Part shown: positions 5,245 through 23,520 of the stretch, piece after piece
Layout: every line of letters begins with the position of its first letter
Position numbering within the stretch: the stretch's first letter is position 1
DNA from: Elusimicrobiota bacterium
GTDB taxonomy: Bacteria > Elusimicrobiota > Elusimicrobia > Elusimicrobiales > UBA9959
Reading direction: 5' to 3'
NCBI GenBank assembly: GCA_016209085.1
Contig: JACQWV010000068.1
Location: 1-43,632 of the forward strand
Length of the DNA stretch: 43,632 bases
The notes under the pieces: generated by a model
The model's database searches: none
The model's input: the letters and a program-made list of their open reading frames with translations, nothing else
Told to the model about the DNA's origin: nothing
Translations under genes and position numbers: made by a program

Positions 5245-5390
5245 AGGGGAAAAAACCGGTCTGGATTAAGAAATTAGCGCCTGAAAATTTTCACGAATTA
5301 ATTTTAAGTTTCAGAACCGCAATGTGCCTGTTTAGCGGGCTTTCATTCATCGGAATATTTGTCTCGTTCAAGAGGCAAAAGGCAGTTTAA
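5241..5390 (+). CDS. small single-pass membrane protein, 49 residues
   Basis: A short ORF whose ATG overlaps the upstream stop codon (ATGA) and is preceded by GGAGG at 5 nt spacing, so it is very likely translated by coupling. The N-terminal half is basic and polar ('MKGKKPVWIKKLAPENFHEL'). A hydrophobic stretch follows (about residues 27-43, 'AMCLFSGLSFIGIFVSF') and the protein ends in 'KRQKAV', which suggests one membrane helix. It resembles no family I recognise. Its stop overlaps the convergent asnS stop by 3 bases (5387-5389). Function unknown. Confidence 0.65.
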   Translation: MKGKKPVWIKKLAPENFHELILSFRTAMCLFSGLSFIGIFVSFKRQKAV

Positions 5391-6787
5391 AATTCAGCGT
5401 AGCCGGGCACGCGGGGAAAAGCGGTTACGTCCCGTATGTTGGATATGCCCGTGACAAGCATCATCATCCTTTCAAAACCCAGTCCGAAGCCGGCGTGCGG
5501 AACAGAACCGAATCTTCTCAAGTCCAGATACCACCGGTAATTTTCAGGATTTATTTTGAAATCAGTCATCTTTTTTTCAAGAACTTCAAGGCGATTCTCT
5601 CTCTCGCTGCCGCCTATGAGCTCTCCTATTCTGGGAACAAGCAGATCCATTCCGCGCACGGTTTTGCCGTCCTCGTTGAGCTTCATGTAAAAAGCCGCGT
5701 TGTTTTTGGGTTTGTTGTAAAGCACGGCCGGTTTTTTGAAATAAGTTTCAACCAGAAAACGCTCGTGCTCGGAGCCGAAGTCCGCTCCCCATGAAACCTT
5801 GTTTTCAAATCTTTCGTTCTCAGGCTCAAGAATCTTTACGGCGTCCGTATAGCTGACGCGCTCGTATCCGGTTTCAGCCACGTTTTTCAGGGTGTCATGG
5901 AGGCTTGTGTCAACGAATTTTGCGAATAAATCCAGGTCCTCCGCGCAGTTTTCAAGAACGTGTTTCGTTATGTTTTTAACAAAATCTTCCGCAAGATCCA
6001 TGTCGTCGAATAAATCGTAAAAAGCCATCTCAGGCTCAATCATCCAGAACTCGGCGCAATGCCTGTAAGTGTTGGAGTTTTCCGCCCTGAAAGTGGGGCC
6101 GAAAGTATAAATCTTGCCGAGGCCGAGCGCCAGCGCCTCTCCCTCTAATTGTCCGGAAACCGTAAGAAAAGTCCTTCTGCAGAACAGATCTTTTGAAAAG
6201 TCTATTTCGCCTTTGTCGTTTTTGGGAAGTTCGTTTAATTTCGCCAGATCAAAACTTGTGACATTGAACATCTGTCCGGCACCCTCGCAATCCGAAGAGG
6301 TTATTATCGGGGTGTGAACGTAAAAAAAACCGTTGTTTCTGAAATATCTGTGAACCGCAAAAGAAAGCTCGGAGCGTATCCTGAGCATCGCGGAGTATTT
6401 GTTGGTTCTGGGCCTTAAATGCGCCACAGTTCTTAAAAATTCATCTGAAGTTTTCTTTTTTTGAATGGGATACGCTTCAGCGTCGCACCCGCCGTGGATT
6501 TCAACTTTCTCTGCCAGAAGCTCCCATTTCTGCTTTGAGGCCGGAGACGCCACGAGGTCGCCCTTAATTCTGACCGAAGTTCCGGTTACCAGAGCAGGCA
6601 GGATATCGGAGAAATCTCCTTTCGTGGTATCAAAAACTATCTGGAGGTTCTGTCTGGTTGAACCGTCGTTTATCTCGGCGAAGGAGCAGGCTTTTGAGTC
6701 TCTTCTGGTTTTAATCCAGCCCCGGACTTCAATCCGGTTTTCTGCGCCGTCAAGTTTCAGGATTTCTTTGATTGTGGGTGCGGGCAT
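5387..6787 (-). CDS. asnS: asparaginyl-tRNA synthetase
   Basis: Class II synthetase that charges tRNA-Asn; 466 residues from MPAPTIKEIL. It has an N-terminal OB fold ('IEVRGWIKTRRDSK'), motif 2 near 'FGPTFRAENSNTYRHCAEFWMIEPEM' and motif 3 'FGLGFERMMMLVTGISNIRD'. The C-terminus 'DVTAFPRVPGYAEF' is typical of AsnRS. An upstream in-frame extension of 34 residues exists, but it lies entirely inside the preceding gene and is not homologous. Having AsnRS means Asn-tRNA can be made directly. It starts 1 nt after the upstream gene's stop and is presumably cotranscribed with it. Confidence 0.97.
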   Translation of the reverse strand: MPAPTIKEILKLDGAENRIEVRGWIKTRRDSKACSFAEINDGSTRQNLQIVFDTTKGDFSDILPALVTGTSVRIKGDLVASPASKQKWELLAEKVEIHGGCDAEAYPIQKKKTSDEFLRTVAHLRPRTNKYSAMLRIRSELSFAVHRYFRNNGFFYVHTPIITSSDCEGAGQMFNVTSFDLAKLNELPKNDKGEIDFSKDLFCRRTFLTVSGQLEGEALALGLGKIYTFGPTFRAENSNTYRHCAEFWMIEPEMAFYDLFDDMDLAEDFVKNITKHVLENCAEDLDLFAKFVDTSLHDTLKNVAETGYERVSYTDAVKILEPENERFENKVSWGADFGSEHERFLVETYFKKPAVLYNKPKNNAAFYMKLNEDGKTVRGMDLLVPRIGELIGGSERENRLEVLEKKMTDFKINPENYRWYLDLRRFGSVPHAGFGLGFERMMMLVTGISNIRDVTAFPRVPGYAEF

Positions 6788-6788
6788 A

Positions 6789-7313
6789 TCATTTTTTCTT
6801 CGGCTTTTCCGGAATTTTACCCACGGAAACAAGTTCAACTTCGCAGTTTTTGTCTTCGCCCGAATACTCCTCAAGGATGTAACCGACATTCGGAGCGTAA
6901 TATCTTACCGATTTGCCGGCGTCTCCGCCTGCCAGACTGGAAACCACTTTCATGCATTTTGTGAATTTTCCGGCTTTTATCGCAAGTTTATCCGACATAG
7001 AGACTATTGCATTGGCATCCGGATGTTCGTCCCATTTTACGCCTTCTCTGGGGGGTAGGGGAAATTCTTTTCTTCCGCCTATTATTATGCCGTCCGCAGT
7101 GATTACCCACTTTTTATCCTTGGTTATTTTATATTCGGTCTCATGGGTGTCTCTCAGAATGAAAGTCATCTGAGCGCGGGCAGTTATTTTGCCCGGTTTT
7201 TTGGCAACGTCCAGTATGTCTATGTAAATTTTTGCGATTCCGTCAAACTCGGTGCTCTTGTATTTATACTCTAACCGCGTCCCCGTCTTCAAAGGAAAAT
7301 AATCAATAACCAT
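6789..7313 (-). CDS. conserved hypothetical protein, 174 residues
   Basis: No signal peptide is visible; the sequence begins MVIDYFPLKTGTRLEYKYKS. The pattern 'YFPL..GT..EY' early and 'RYYAPNVGYILEEY' late recalls a beta-rich domain often found in exported proteins of unknown function ('yyPl..G..W.Y ... YapgvG.v'). The C-terminus is lysine/proline-rich (PEKPKKK). It sits directly upstream of asnS, 1 nt apart, on the same strand. I do not recognise the function. Confidence 0.75.
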   Translation of the reverse strand: MVIDYFPLKTGTRLEYKYKSTEFDGIAKIYIDILDVAKKPGKITARAQMTFILRDTHETEYKITKDKKWVITADGIIIGGRKEFPLPPREGVKWDEHPDANAIVSMSDKLAIKAGKFTKCMKVVSSLAGGDAGKSVRYYAPNVGYILEEYSGEDKNCEVELVSVGKIPEKPKKK

Positions 7314-8409: not shown

Positions 8410-8452
8410 TAATCCTGCATAAAATTTAAATCTTTATCCCACGCGCATTACT

Positions 8453-8583
8453 GAGCCTCCCCTTTCCCGTAGGGGAAAGGGGCTGACCGCTTTTCGGCTG
8501 TGACTGCGTCACTCGTCGCTTACATAACCCAAGTTATGCGCGCTCCTCGTTCCTTGTCTCGCTCAAAAATCGGCTCAGCCAAA
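8453..8583 (+). repeat. 131-bp dispersed repeat, copy A
   Basis: Matches 22678-22808 over its full 131 bp with about five substitutions (roughly 96% identity). It opens with a CCCCTTTCCC/GGGGAAAGGGG hairpin and carries the stem CATAAC-CCAA-GTTATG (8523-8538). It ends AGCCAAA, 1 nt before the ATG of the ACR3 gene. No long ORF in it looks real. Confidence 0.85.
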
Positions 8584-9666: not shown

Positions 9667-9979
9667 GTCTTATTGAGGAACTTGTTGATAAACAGTATTT
9701 TCATGGCACTGAGGATTTCCCAAAAATAGTTGAAATTTGAGGCGGACCTTTGGCATTAATATAATTAGCACTACTCCGTTAATTGCGGAATGCGGATTGC
9801 CCAATAAAGGGACATCCCCACTTATTCCGCCTGAGGCGGATGGAGAGGGGGTAAATCCACAATGTAGCATAGAGTGTGAATTCGCAACTGATGTGTTGGC
9901 TCACGCTAACCGCTATCCTTGCATAAACATTTAACGAAGTAGTGTTAGTTGCTCTTGAAAAACTCTGGATTTATAAATC
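9667..9979. other. intergenic stretch with small palindromes, no gene seen
   Basis: Between acr3 and the tRNA. It holds a heptamer-like run TTGCGGA-ATGCGGA-TTGCCCA (9783-9803) and the palindrome TCCGCC TGA GGCGGA (9826-9840). A near copy of the palindrome (TCGCCTGAGGCGGA) lies upstream of ppdK at 20721-20734. Neither strand gives a convincing ORF. Confidence 0.5.
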
Positions 9980-10110
9980 TGGTGGACGTGAAGGGATTCG
10001 AACCCTCGACCTCTTCCTTGCTCACTCGCGTCGGCGGCTAAACAGACAGCCGCCTTAGCGCTTCCCTCTTCCTTGCGAAGGAAGCGCTCTCCCAGCTGAG
10101 CTACACGCCC
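9980..10110 (-). tRNA. tRNA-Ala(CGC) interrupted by 55 nt in the variable region
   Basis: Read on the minus strand: acceptor GGGCGTG (10110-10104) pairs with CACGTCC, the D-arm is GCTC/GAGC, and the anticodon stem CTTCC/GGAAG encloses TTCGCAA with anticodon CGC (10075-10077). The T-arm GAGGG TTCGAAT CCCTT is complete and CCA is encoded (9980-9982). A canonical molecule would be 76 nt; this locus is 131 nt. The extra 55 nt lie between the anticodon stem and the T-arm, bounded by a 12-bp direct repeat (10010-10021 and 10065-10076). Removing one period restores a perfect tRNA. It could be a disrupted gene, a tRNA tolerating a long variable arm, or one that is processed; the sequence alone does not decide. 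Confidence 0.85.
10022..10064. mobile_element. palindromic insert inside tRNA-Ala
   Basis: The 43 nt between the two 12-bp direct repeats. It contains a perfect hairpin GGCGGCT-N8-AGCCGCC (10033-10054). Its edge AGCGCTTCC (10057-10065) is also complementary over 9 bp to 10080-10088, the 5' strand of the anticodon stem and its neighbourhood, so the insert could misfold the cloverleaf. The flanking repeat looks like a target-site duplication. Confidence 0.6.
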
Positions 10111-10232
10111 CGTTAGAGATAGGTCACGCAAGCGTGACCGACGATTATTACAGTTTTTCGGTCAAACTTCTGAAAATTGCACGTCTTCAGTGTCTTTGGT
10201 TCAATTTCTCACCGATGTATCTCTAACGGGGC
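10107..10232. repeat. inverted repeat overlapping the tRNA 5' end
   Basis: GCCCCGTTAGAGATA (10107-10121) is perfectly repeated in inverse at 10218-10232, 96 nt apart; the left arm covers the first four bases of the tRNA. Just inside is an 18-bp perfect palindrome GGTCACGC-AA-GCGTGACC (10122-10139). The tRNA promoter must lie in or beyond this element. It may be a small mobile element or a long RNA/DNA hairpin. Confidence 0.6.
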
Positions 10233-10264: not shown

Positions 10265-11212
10265 CTAATTTCCCGCGGCTTTTATTTCAGCTTCAATGCG
10301 GGTTTTGGCTTTGCTGTGTTCCTGGTAATTGACGTTGAAAACATGCCTGCCTTTCCTGTCTGAGACAAAATAAAGCGCGTCAAATTTCGCAGGATTAAAA
10401 ACAGCGTGAATTGACTCGTATCCCGGGTTGCATATGGGACCGGGCGGAAGGCCCGCGTATTTATAAGTGTTGTAGGGCGAATCCGTTTTAAGGTCCTTCC
10501 TGCTGATATTTTTCTTCCAGTGCCCCAGCGCATACTGGACGGTCGGGTCCGCCTCAAGGAGCATGTTCTTTCTGAGCCTGTTTAAGTACACAGCCGTAAT
10601 CAGCGGCCTTTCGCTCGGAACAACGGCTTCCCTTTCAACTATTGAGGCTATGGTTACGACCTGCCGCCTTGACAGATTCAAAGGAGCGGATTGATTTGCA
10701 AACAATGATTCTGTCTGTCTTTCAAATTCCGCTTTTAAAACTTTGATTACTTCTTCAGCAGGCATGTTCTTTTTAAAATAATAAGTGGAAGGGAACAGAT
10801 AACCTTCAAACCGGCCTCTTTTCGCAATATCCGTAAATCTTGTTTTATCAGTCACGTTATTGGCATGGAGCCTTTCAGCCATCTGCTCAATTCTCCAGCC
10901 TTCGGGCAGCATGACTTTTACATTATCCATGTACGTGCTGTGCGTCAGAATCCACAAAGCCTGCTCCGCGGACATGTATTTTCTGAACTCATGTTCCCCG
11001 GGCATTATTTTTTTGCCCGTGCCGGTTATTTTCACCAGGATCTTGAACCATGTTGAACTTAATATAACTGAATTGTCCTCAAGAATTTCAGCGACCATGG
11101 AGGCTGAAATTCCCTGTTCTATTGCCACTTTTGTTTTTTCGCCCGGCCAGAAAAAATAAAGCAGAAGAAGCGCCAGTAAAAAAAAACCTATGGATAATTT
11201 GCGCATTTTCAT
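10265..11212 (-). CDS. mltG: endolytic murein transglycosylase MltG
   Basis: Cuts nascent glycan strands in peptidoglycan. 315 residues with an N-terminal membrane anchor (residues about 6-22), a LysM-like region ('VMLPEGWRIEQMAERL') and the catalytic domain. The presumed catalytic Glu is in 'VTIASIVEREAVV', followed by 'ADPTVQYALG' and 'SPYNTYKYAGLPPGPICNPG', which are diagnostic. Its ATG overlaps the thpR stop by 4 nt, so it is the last gene of the minus-strand run. A second in-frame ATG two codons later is an equally good start. Confidence 0.95.
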   Translation of the reverse strand: MKMRKLSIGFFLLALLLLYFFWPGEKTKVAIEQGISASMVAEILEDNSVILSSTWFKILVKITGTGKKIMPGEHEFRKYMSAEQALWILTHSTYMDNVKVMLPEGWRIEQMAERLHANNVTDKTRFTDIAKRGRFEGYLFPSTYYFKKNMPAEEVIKVLKAEFERQTESLFANQSAPLNLSRRQVVTIASIVEREAVVPSERPLITAVYLNRLRKNMLLEADPTVQYALGHWKKNISRKDLKTDSPYNTYKYAGLPPGPICNPGYESIHAVFNPAKFDALYFVSDRKGRHVFNVNYQEHSKAKTRIEAEIKAAGN

Positions 11213-20864: not shown

Positions 20865-20893
20865 TTGGCTAATGATGTCTAATGTTGTATAAT
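20865..20893 (+). promoter_or_regulatory. promoter of the DNA methyltransferase gene
   Basis: TTGGCT (20865-20870), a 17-bp spacer and a perfect TATAAT (20888-20893), 19 nt before the chosen ATG. The leader is short, and the HTH domain of the product could act here. Confidence 0.55.
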
Positions 20894-20911
20894 AAAAACA
20901 AGAGGATATTT

Positions 20912-22528
20912 ATGACATTGACCAAACATAAATCAAAACAAATGTTAACGACAAAACAAGCCGCCATATTTTTAGGCGTAAGCACCAAAACCATTTATCG
21001 AATGGAGGAGAAAGGATTTATACATTCTATCCGAACGCCGGGAGGGCAACGTCGCTTTACCAGTTCCGCCATTCAAACATATCTTAATAAAAGCCGTGAT
21101 TTTACCGCTCCGCAAAATCCCAGCAGATATAAAAATAGTTTGATGGTAAGAGAAAAAAACGGCGATACTTACGCTCTATTCAAGGATACAGAAGTTTCAC
21201 AAAAAACGCCTACTCTACAACAGTTGGACCGGTTAGAACAGATAGTTTCATTAAATTCTTCAAACAATCATCATCAGTATTACGATAAAGAAATCAATCC
21301 CAAACACTGGTTAGAAGAATGGGATTTTAAGACTTATCGCACCAAAACTTATACGCACGGTTTTCATGCTTATCCCGCAATGTTCATACCACAGGTTGCC
21401 CGTAAACTTATTCTGGCTTTTTCTCAAAACAGTGACTTAGTCTGTGATATATTTTGCGGCTCAGGCACGACATTGGTAGAAAGCAGTCTCTTAAACCGCA
21501 ACTCTATTGGAATTGAACTTAATCCATTAGCAGTCTTAATTGCCCGCGTTAAAACCACACCCATTGACCCCAAGACTTTGCTAACTAAACTTAAAATCGT
21601 CATCAATGAGTATCAACAAAATAAAGATATAGAACCGCCTGAATTTTATAATATTGATTTCTGGTTCAGTAGAAATGCCATAAAGGATTTAGCGCGCCTG
21701 CGGGGGGCAATTTGGAACATTTCCGAAGAAAATATTCGCAACTTTTTCTTATTGCCTTTTAGCGAAGTAGTTAGAATTGTTTCATTCACGCGGCATAACG
21801 AATTTAAATTATTCCGGTCACCGGAAAAATTATCAGACAAATTCAAAACAGACACGCTGAATGAATTCGTTAAACTTTGTGAAAATAACATTTTGGGAAT
21901 GAAAGAATATATTCGCGACGTCCTGCCGCAGACATATTCGCGCATTATTACGGGTGATGCCACAAAAGATAACGGCATTCCTTATAATTCAGTAGATTTC
22001 ATTATTACCTCTCCGCCTTATGGCGACAGCAGAACTACTGTGGCTTATGGCCAATTTTCCAGATTATCCTCTCAATGGCTGGATTTACTGCCGCCTAATA
22101 TCAAAGACCTTGATAAAGAATTGATGGGTGGTAAAAATAACGTTGACATAAATGATTCAATATTAGAACAATCAAATACGCTCAAATATAGTATCAAGAC
22201 TATTGCTGAAAAAGATAAAGACCGGGCAAAGGATGTCTTGAGTTTTTATATTGATTTAGAGAAGGCATTAAAACAAGCCCATAAAATATTGAAACCTCAA
22301 AAATACTTCTGCTTGATTGTTGGCAACCGCACGGTAAAAGAACTGGTCTTAAAGACTGATGCAATTATTTGTGAATTAGGCGAAAAAATCGGTTTTACTT
22401 CTCAAGGCATATTATATCGCAATATCCCCAACAAACGAATGCCTTTAAGAAATAGTCCTACAAATGAAGCGGGAAAAACCGGTTCTACAATGCTCAAAGA
22501 GGGGATTATTCTATTGAGAAAGTTATAA
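20912..22528 (+). CDS. type II DNA methyltransferase with an N-terminal MerR/excisionase HTH
   Basis: 538 residues from MTLTKHK, with AGAGG 7 nt upstream. Residues about 11-58 form a winged HTH ('LTTKQAAIFLGVSTKTIYRMEEKGF', then 'GGQRRFT'). The methylase part has motif I 'DIFCGSGTTLVE' (about 179-190) with 'IGIELNPLAV' after it, and motif IV 'ITSPPYGDS'. SPPY favours N4-cytosine methylation, but N6-adenine cannot be excluded. It converges on an MvaI/BcnI-like endonuclease, so it is the protective partner. The fused HTH may repress its own gene, doing the work of a separate control protein. It is AT-rich relative to the flanking core genes, which suggests transfer. Confidence 0.9.
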   Translation: MTLTKHKSKQMLTTKQAAIFLGVSTKTIYRMEEKGFIHSIRTPGGQRRFTSSAIQTYLNKSRDFTAPQNPSRYKNSLMVREKNGDTYALFKDTEVSQKTPTLQQLDRLEQIVSLNSSNNHHQYYDKEINPKHWLEEWDFKTYRTKTYTHGFHAYPAMFIPQVARKLILAFSQNSDLVCDIFCGSGTTLVESSLLNRNSIGIELNPLAVLIARVKTTPIDPKTLLTKLKIVINEYQQNKDIEPPEFYNIDFWFSRNAIKDLARLRGAIWNISEENIRNFFLLPFSEVVRIVSFTRHNEFKLFRSPEKLSDKFKTDTLNEFVKLCENNILGMKEYIRDVLPQTYSRIITGDATKDNGIPYNSVDFIITSPPYGDSRTTVAYGQFSRLSSQWLDLLPPNIKDLDKELMGGKNNVDINDSILEQSNTLKYSIKTIAEKDKDRAKDVLSFYIDLEKALKQAHKILKPQKYFCLIVGNRTVKELVLKTDAIICELGEKIGFTSQGILYRNIPNKRMPLRNSPTNEAGKTGSTMLKEGIILLRKL

Positions 22529-22553
22529 GCAGATTCATAAATCAATACTTTGC

Positions 22554-22836
22554 TACTGAGGCAAACATAAATAATGTCCTACTTTGGAGGCTCAGATTTG
22601 GATTGGATGCAAGGCGCGACGAACGAGCATAGCGTGGGCTATGTGAATGAGGAGCAACGCAGCAGGCGGCCAAATATGAGCCTCCCCTTTCCCGTAGTGG
22701 AAAGGGGCTGGCCGCTTTTCGGCTTAGATTGCGTCACTCGTCGCTTACATAACCCAAGTTATGCGCGCTCCTCGTTCCTTGTCTCGCTCAAAAATCGGCT
22801 CAGCCAAAGCGGACATTATTTATGTTTGCCTCAGTA
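22554..22836. mobile_element. 283-bp inverted-repeat element between the R-M genes
   Basis: Bounded by a perfect 26-bp inverted repeat (22554-22579 and 22811-22836). The right half contains repeat copy B (22678-22808); the left half (about 22585-22675) is a diverged, inverted relative of it, so the whole is a large imperfect palindrome. It fills the space between the two convergent R-M genes, ending 3 nt before the endonuclease stop. No clear target duplication is visible. Confidence 0.75.
22678..22808 (+). repeat. 131-bp dispersed repeat, copy B
   Basis: About 96% identical to 8453-8583. It carries the CATAAC-CCAA-GTTATG stem at 22748-22763. The mirrored left half of the element carries CATAGC-GTGG-GCTATG (22628-22643), with one base pair changed on both sides of the stem. 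Confidence 0.85.
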
Positions 22837-22839
22837 ATG

Positions 22840-23520
22840 CTATATATCCATTATCTTCTTAAACAGATACGGCAACTTGCTTTCATAGGTTCTAAATCCA
22901 GTTCCGTGATTTCGCGCCATTGTCCCCTTATCGTGAAGACGCAAGTCAACCAAAATATTTTCCGCTTTGAATTGATCTGCCAATAATGCAGGCGAAGTTC
23001 CTCGCAATAATTGGGCACGGTAGAAATGAAACCACTCTTTACCTCCACGTTCTTCAACAAAAGCAGATACCAGAACTAATGCAGGCATTTTCCTAATAAA
23101 TGTCTCTGCCAATTTCTCTAATGACCATGTTGCTATTATGGTCCCTGATATATGTCTTACGGATATGTCTTGATTGGTTATATGTAAGAACAATCCGGCG
23201 CTATTTGGTTTTAGTGACATGGTATAATAAAGACCTTTTCGTCCGTTTTTATCCAAACTTCCATATTTCTTGACTGCCTCAAGAGGCGGCAATTGCCATA
23301 CTTTCCGATTAAAAGTAAATAGAGTTATCATGTTGTTACTATCAGAGCGATGTGCTTTAATTTCTGCTTCAATAAGATCAGGTAAAGCAACATTATTTTC
23401 TTTCAGCCCAAGATGCGTCTCTAATGTATGCCCTACACCTGTCGGACCTTTTCTGGTAGATGGAACGTATCCTTTTTTCTTGAGGCTGCTCAGACGTTCT
23501 TTAAATTTCTGCAAATTCAT
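22840..23520 (-). CDS. MvaI/BcnI-type restriction endonuclease
   Basis: 226 residues. 'GPTGVGHTLETHLGLKENN' near the N-terminus and the catalytic D48-x4-E53-x-K55 in 'PDLIEAEIKAH' match the MvaI/BcnI family arrangement; 'LFTFNRKVW' follows, also typical. Known members cut CCWGG or CCSGG as monomers, so a CCNGG-type target is expected. It is paired with the HTH-fused methylase in tail-to-tail orientation. The gene looks complete. No strong ribosome binding site precedes its ATG. Confidence 0.88.
   Translation of the reverse strand: MNLQKFKERLSSLKKKGYVPSTRKGPTGVGHTLETHLGLKENNVALPDLIEAEIKAHRSDSNNMITLFTFNRKVWQLPPLEAVKKYGSLDKNGRKGLYYTMSLKPNSAGLFLHITNQDISVRHISGTIIATWSLEKLAETFIRKMPALVLVSAFVEERGGKEWFHFYRAQLLRGTSPALLADQFKAENILVDLRLHDKGTMARNHGTGFRTYESKLPYLFKKIMDI

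Follow-up and report, generated by a model that had tools for sequence, protein, structure and literature searches.

A split tRNA-Ala(CGC) gene in an Elusimicrobiota genome is probably a deletion relic carrying part of a locus-specific hairpin element

The 55-nt insert that splits a tRNA-Ala(CGC) gene in an Elusimicrobiota MAG appears to be the end piece of a hairpin element specific to the tRNA-Ala(CGC) locus within one family of this phylum, and the gene, fused to the element by a deletion, most likely yields no decoding tRNA; we give this explanation as a whole a probability of about two in three. The split gene would then most likely be a broken relic and not a new kind of tRNA. Coordinates refer to the window, the entire 43,632-nt stretch analysed, which is contig C139 of a short-read assembly in 140 contigs (2.35 Mb, 98% complete), the only genome analysed from its genus. 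On the minus strand, 10110..9980 is a tRNA-Ala(CGC) gene interrupted by the insert between two copies of GCAAGGAAGAGG and reads GGGCGTGTAGCTCAGCTGGGAGAGCGCTTCCTTCGCAAGGAAGAGG-GAAGCGCTAAGGCGGCTGTCTGTTTAGCCGCCGACGCGAGTGAGCAAGGAAGAGG-TCGAGGGTTCGAATCCCTTCACGTCCACCA. The features of the locus are as follows.

10265..11212, minus strand: YceG (MltG) gene, conserved upstream neighbour of the split tRNA
10077..10110, minus strand: tRNA-Ala(CGC) nt 1-34, comprising the acceptor 5' strand, D arm, anticodon-stem 5' strand and first anticodon base (Rfam, ARAGORN)
10065..10076, minus strand: direct repeat copy 1, GCAAGGAAGAGG, tRNA nt 35-46 (repeat search)
10022..10064, minus strand: unique 43 nt of the insert (single match in its own genome)
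10057..10068, minus strand: antisense arm GAGGGAAGCGCT, partner of the anticodon-arm 5' strand at 10077-10088 (AGCGCTTCCTTC) and partly overlapping repeat copy 1
10033..10054, minus strand: insert hairpin GGCGGCTG-TCTGTT-TAGCCGCC (predicted fold, arm swapping, covariance model)
10020..10032, minus strand: tail GACGCGAGTGAGC, common to relatives (GAGCACGAGTGAGC), in which TGAGC pairs with the D-stem GCTCA
10010..10021, minus strand: direct repeat copy 2, GCAAGGAAGAGG, the first GC of which doubles as the end of the GAGTGAGC motif
9980..10009, minus strand: tRNA 3' part with T arm, acceptor 3' strand including U70, and encoded CCA (Rfam, ARAGORN)
9968..9979, minus strand: trailer palindrome GATTTATAAATC

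The Rfam tRNA model matched 9983-10110 (minus strand) at 55.7 bits with a large insertion, tRNA being the only known RNA family found by Rfam in the window at gathering and relaxed thresholds. ARAGORN made zero tRNA calls in the window under default settings and, with introns allowed, returned a tRNA-Ala(CGC) with i(38,55), that is, a 55-nt intron after base 38. An earlier sequence-only reading had described a 12-bp repeat, a 55-nt period and a perfect 76-nt tRNA on excision, and repeat search, Rfam and ARAGORN agree with it exactly: the repeat (CCTCTTCCTTGC on the plus strand, at 10010-10021 and 10065-10076) is exact with its copies 55 apart, and the excised 76-mer forms a perfect tRNA-Ala(CGC) cloverleaf in ARAGORN with a G3:U70 pair and an encoded CCA. 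The split gene itself has the G3:U70 pair, T arm and CCA of a functional tRNA, while the continuous cloverleaf with a 7-nt anticodon loop is broken by the 55-nt interruption; its tRNA body is free of decay, with anticodon and T stems fully paired. The same reading had put the insert in the variable region and not at position 37/38, but the 12-bp repeat makes the insertion site ambiguous, with 13 placements from 34/35 to 46/47 all yielding one 76-mer, and 37/38 is therefore permitted. A 15-bp perfect inverted repeat (10107-10121 / 10218-10232) spans the interval from the tRNA leader to the 3' region of YceG and is adjoined near the leader by a perfect hairpin, GGTCACGC-AA-GCGTGACC, at 10122-10139.

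Gene order LigT-YceG-tRNA-Ala(CGC) is conserved between the window and its relatives (the named ones, found via YceG, are Elusimicrobia MAGs), and the conservation of YceG upstream indicates that the tRNA locus is orthologous across the family. The gene next after the tRNA in relatives encodes a class II tRNA synthetase; its window counterpart lies at 5387-6889, with TPR and SBF genes intervening between it and the tRNA in the host genome. At the relatives' loci checked with ARAGORN, tRNA-Ala(CGC) is uninterrupted.

In related genera a homologous element of ~70-150 nt occupies this orthologous locus, usually just downstream of the intact tRNA. Its parts are, in order, the tRNA 5' half in inverted copy with a hairpin breaking it, then CGAGTGAGC, then the tRNA 3' half in direct copy (~40-90 bp). 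Across many genus-g4 genomes it starts roughly 10-100 nt past the intact tRNA; there the inverted part copies tRNA nt 24-40 (GTTGCGAACGAGGCGC or the 3' part thereof), the hairpin has 7-8 bp (often GGCGGCC-AGCA-GGCCGCC), GAGC(C/A)CGAGTGAGC repeats D-arm nt 10-20 imperfectly in inverted orientation, and the direct part runs from tRNA nt 38 to the CCA and on into the trailer. The direct copy takes in the terminator in G246 and G003, and the GATTT that follows the CCA of the split gene also stands behind many relatives' tRNA copies. A related form occurs in another genus (G009). Five genomes (G022, G229, G246, G252, G306) have one or two compact copies upstream of and beside the intact tRNA, with the hairpin inside a full tRNA 5' half and degraded 3' ends. 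The exact core GAGYGAGCAACGAGG occurs in 14 of 59 family genomes, in each case as a single match apart from one genome with two (reversed-pattern matches, zero), and the element is missing from many genomes. The split gene, which stands at the YceG locus, has the same make-up: an antisense 5'-half arm, a hairpin and a CGAGTGAGC tail, with nt 38 as the point of junction to the tRNA 3' half. A conserved extra arm shared by relatives, which the sequence-only reading had named as grounds for refuting it, is half borne out: the same element is indeed present in relatives, but always beside an intact tRNA-Ala(CGC) in the cases seen; only in the host genome is the sole CGC gene found the element-bearing one. 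A contig end in G224 (L202, G224:C110) shows a tandem array whose units comprise the tRNA-Ala 3' half, trailer and the hairpin element.

Homology of the insert to this element was assessed with a covariance model (R1) built from 11 genus-g4 sequences, the window copy being excluded; these were three compact copies and eight sequences from which the intervening 3' half had been removed, with a short artificial loop. R1 matched window 9983-10110 over all 119 positions with 83.3 bits (E 2.7e-21). Among the matches listed for 341 Elusimicrobiota genomes, ordinary tRNA-Ala genes scored ~50-58 bits, and only the split gene and the compact copies in the five genomes exceeded 70 bits. The non-tRNA bases of the insert aligned better than 2000 of 2000 shuffles both with L148 (GCCGCCGA-CGCGAGTGAGC / GCCGCCGAGCACGAGTGAGC) and with L157, while the alignment with L063 was not significant. 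Neither a second copy of the insert nor a second match to its tail motif was found in its own genome, and the idea that the insert is a dispersed repeat was rejected on this basis.

We posit that the relatives display the ancestral situation of an inverted 5'-half copy and a direct 3'-half copy adjoining an intact tRNA; as the element comprises the inverted 5' half, the hairpin and the direct 3' half, the tRNA itself is spared. In the host lineage, one deletion that began at tRNA nt 47, took out the first 3' half and the spacer and ended in the element would have fused the tRNA 5' half to the element, producing the 131-nt gene. At the junction in the window, AAGGAAGAGG/GAAGCGCT, the sequence is that of the relatives' AACGAGGAGG fused with GAGGCGC (GAGGCGCT), so that a single deletion suffices. 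The one-deletion model would also explain why the repeat is only 12 bp long and why its first GC is the end of GAGTGAGC. Thus the 12-bp repeat, previously taken for a target duplication, corresponds in relatives to the first part of a direct copy that is far longer, taking in the tRNA 3' half and the trailer, and, judging by sequence, is best read as the duplicated start of the tRNA 3' half. An intermediate with intact tRNA plus element was not seen in the one genome of the host genus. The element may first have formed through some mobility system or by a double template switch, which would produce one inverted and one direct partial copy, with the hairpin and the shared CGAGTGAGC needing further explanation.

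Loss of the CGC tRNA would be tolerable, since tRNA-Ala(UGC) commonly reads GCG codons and would then do so in the host lineage; to our knowledge, E. coli has no CGC tRNA. A count of tRNA-Ala genes, which the sequence-only reading had proposed, found intact tRNA-Ala(TGC) and tRNA-Ala(GGC) genes in the host genome and no second tRNA-Ala(CGC) gene in the 98% complete assembly. Evidence against a relic includes the intact anticodon- and T-stem pairing and CCA, and the status of GCG as the commonest Ala codon (32%, in 16 window ORFs), so that a CGC tRNA could be useful. If the element was inherited from the common ancestor of g1 and g4, some tRNA pairing near the insert must have been kept or re-made.

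In the minimum free energy (MFE) fold predicted for the 131-mer (-62.4 kcal/mol, z -3.5; none of 200 shuffles reached this stability), UGAGC in the insert pairs with the D-stem GCUCA, the antisense arm forms 12 bp (AGCGCUUCCUUC/GAGGGAAGCGCU) with the 5' strand of the anticodon arm, and the hairpin pairs with itself. This structure prediction bears out the competing fold proposed earlier, together with two of its components: the 7-bp insert hairpin is present, its 7 Watson-Crick pairs extended by one G-U pair, and the 9-bp pairing with the anticodon-stem strand grows to 12 bp. The cloverleaf with the insert looped out reaches -43.5 kcal/mol, 18.9 worse than the MFE fold. Since the 131-nt transcript is predicted to fold otherwise, a decoding tRNA is most likely not made; the dead gene considered by the sequence-only reading is still the best account and the competing fold is real, with the absence of a mature product being a prediction from folding.

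The same fold invites an alternative that we consider unlikely, in which the 131-nt RNA would be functional as a tRNA-like, alanine-chargeable molecule with its decoding arm replaced by a long helix and hairpin. Its acceptor stem, T arm and G3:U70 pair are all retained, and with G3:U70 and the T arm intact alanine charging is possible. One predicted fold serves both the split gene and a relative's whole intact-tRNA-plus-element stretch, in which the first 3' half is looped out. Because MAFFT misaligned the hairpin of the split gene against relatives, covariation was assessed in two ways, on an alignment fitted to the model and by exchanging hairpin arms, both resting on few independent sequences. 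Helix pairing survives changes in the fitted alignment, with 5 pairs changing on both sides compared with 1.5 for shuffles (0 of 500). Double changes affect arms 28-49 and 29-48, and a single sequence contributes many of them. Hairpin arms fit their own partner better than others', and host arms cross-paired with genus-g4 arms more weakly, the arms having been chosen by eye. The diverged anticodon stem of the host tRNA (CTTCC/GGAAG) is matched in all three derived segments. Selection for an RNA fold would produce double changes, but so would repeated rebuilding or homogenisation of the element from the local tRNA, and the identity of direct copies to their own genome's tRNA appears in part to favour the latter. 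Inverted duplication yields such pairing without selection, the compact copies of the five relatives have degraded acceptor and T stems (helices 1 and 5), and many genomes do without the element. A maintained RNA feature that is the sole form of the gene in the host lineage, whether through an alternative alanine-chargeable fold or precise excision by some novel bacterial pathway, is doubtful in our judgement; if the RNA were processed or charged, this would amount to a novel mode of tRNA maturation in bacteria or to a novel tRNA-like RNA. The tRNA-like domain of tmRNA keeps G3:U70, T arm and CCA and has the anticodon arm replaced by a helix, a plan comparable to that of the 131-nt RNA, which also has these three features but differs in having no demonstrated reading frame or pseudoknots, and Rfam gave zero tmRNA matches in the window. 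For related loci, tmRNA or sRNA identity was rejected, the weak matches lying on the tRNA body itself or below the cut-off.

Splicing of the transcript, with the 55 nt leaving as a short intron at 37/38 and a functional tRNA-Ala(CGC) being restored, is quite improbable. Exact excision leaves a perfect tRNA, placement at 37/38 is allowed, the exons are undamaged and the host genome has an RtcB RNA ligase gene, but RtcB also occurs in many bacteria, and the tRNA-splicing endonuclease (PF01974) had 0 matches in the 98% complete host assembly while archaeal controls were positive. An archaeal bulge-helix-bulge is impossible because both junctions within the repeat read the same, almost all-purine sequence: the best central helix across all placements has 3 of 4 pairs, and with a 4-bp central helix in none of them this kind of splicing is ruled out. 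The insert is also far too small for a group I intron, as noted earlier, with zero Rfam intron matches at gathering or relaxed threshold, and relatives retain an uninterrupted tRNA-Ala(CGC). Like known tRNA introns (group I in bacteria, protein-spliced in archaea and eukaryotes; PMC4033280), it can be placed at 37/38 in a tRNA gene; it differs from them in being 55 nt long with neither catalytic core nor bulge-helix-bulge, in a genome where the splicing endonuclease was not found. That review describes no short, enzymatically removed tRNA intron in bacteria.

An insertion of a transposon or MITE into the tRNA with a 12-bp target duplication is very unlikely: an exact 12-bp direct repeat does bracket a hairpin and the host genome is rich in another MITE, but the insert is single-copy rather than multiple and has no terminal inverted repeats, its inverted arm being an antisense copy of the tRNA; the repeat belongs to the longer direct copy seen in relatives; and the antisense arm is complementary to the host tRNA's own diverged stem and hence tRNA-derived. 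An assembly artefact at this tRNA-repeat locus, conceivable in a short-read MAG whose relatives have a repeat-rich arrangement, is the least credible explanation, as collapse of a repeat of at least 40 bp would not yield the observed junction and the contig continues for kilobases on either side.

The other MITE-like element, 283 bp with 26-bp perfect terminal inverted repeats, lies at window 22554-22836 (and 8452-8583) and occurs at ~41 distinct places in the host genome (58 raw matches), 7 of them <500 nt from a tRNA gene versus ~0.6 under an expectation that ignores intergenic bias. At 20882-23520 it sits between the members of a restriction-modification pair, a DNA methylase (PF01555) and an MvaI/BcnI-type endonuclease (PF15515).

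tRNA gene fragments arising from mobile-element integration have been reviewed with examples (PMC9897764). The tRNA-Ala(CGC) element resembles them as a partial copy beside an intact tRNA whose direct copy is the 3' part; it differs in its ~70-150 nt without integrase or cargo, in its inverted 5' half and hairpin, and in a direct repeat that can extend past the tRNA into the trailer. Like palindromic repeats and MITEs (REP, RPE) it is short, non-coding and hairpin-rich, and other hairpin-rich repeats in family genomes also sit at tRNA genes; unlike those dispersed families, it is tied to one locus and nearly always present once per genome. We found nothing relevant on tRNA-targeting palindromes in Elusimicrobiota among open-licence papers. 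The element points to a recurrent, structured route to the copying, inversion and invasion of tRNA genes in a phylum that has received little study, and the host offers a natural case in which the sole dedicated GCG-reading tRNA gene bears the element's debris.

Family genomes also contain a dispersed, hairpin-rich repeat of ~135 nt (L210-L239) with core GCCGAGCCGGGGYCGCG, found at 43 places spread over 24 of the 59 genomes (1 with the reversed control) and with none in the window's genome. Of 30 loci examined, 16 are near a tRNA gene (Arg CCG, Arg TCT, Ala CGC, Gly TCC), mostly on its downstream side, with pieces of that tRNA, both inverted and direct, on their flanks; the matches at L219, L220 and L223 lie in coding sequence and look like chance. 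tRNA-Ala 5' fragments stand just upstream of intact tRNA-Ala at L062 (G019), L056 (G013), L199 and L200, that of G019 being joined to a small GIY-YIG endonuclease ORF (PF01541, E 5e-12); a connection of the G019 fragment with the tRNA-Ala(CGC) element was considered and set aside, as the fragments' break points differ and no direct link emerged. A partial tRNA-like match of 28.3 bits at G000:C130:3552-3605 (L036), between copies of a short repeat (TCAATTTATTGAGCCCGC...), is perhaps another tRNA fragment.
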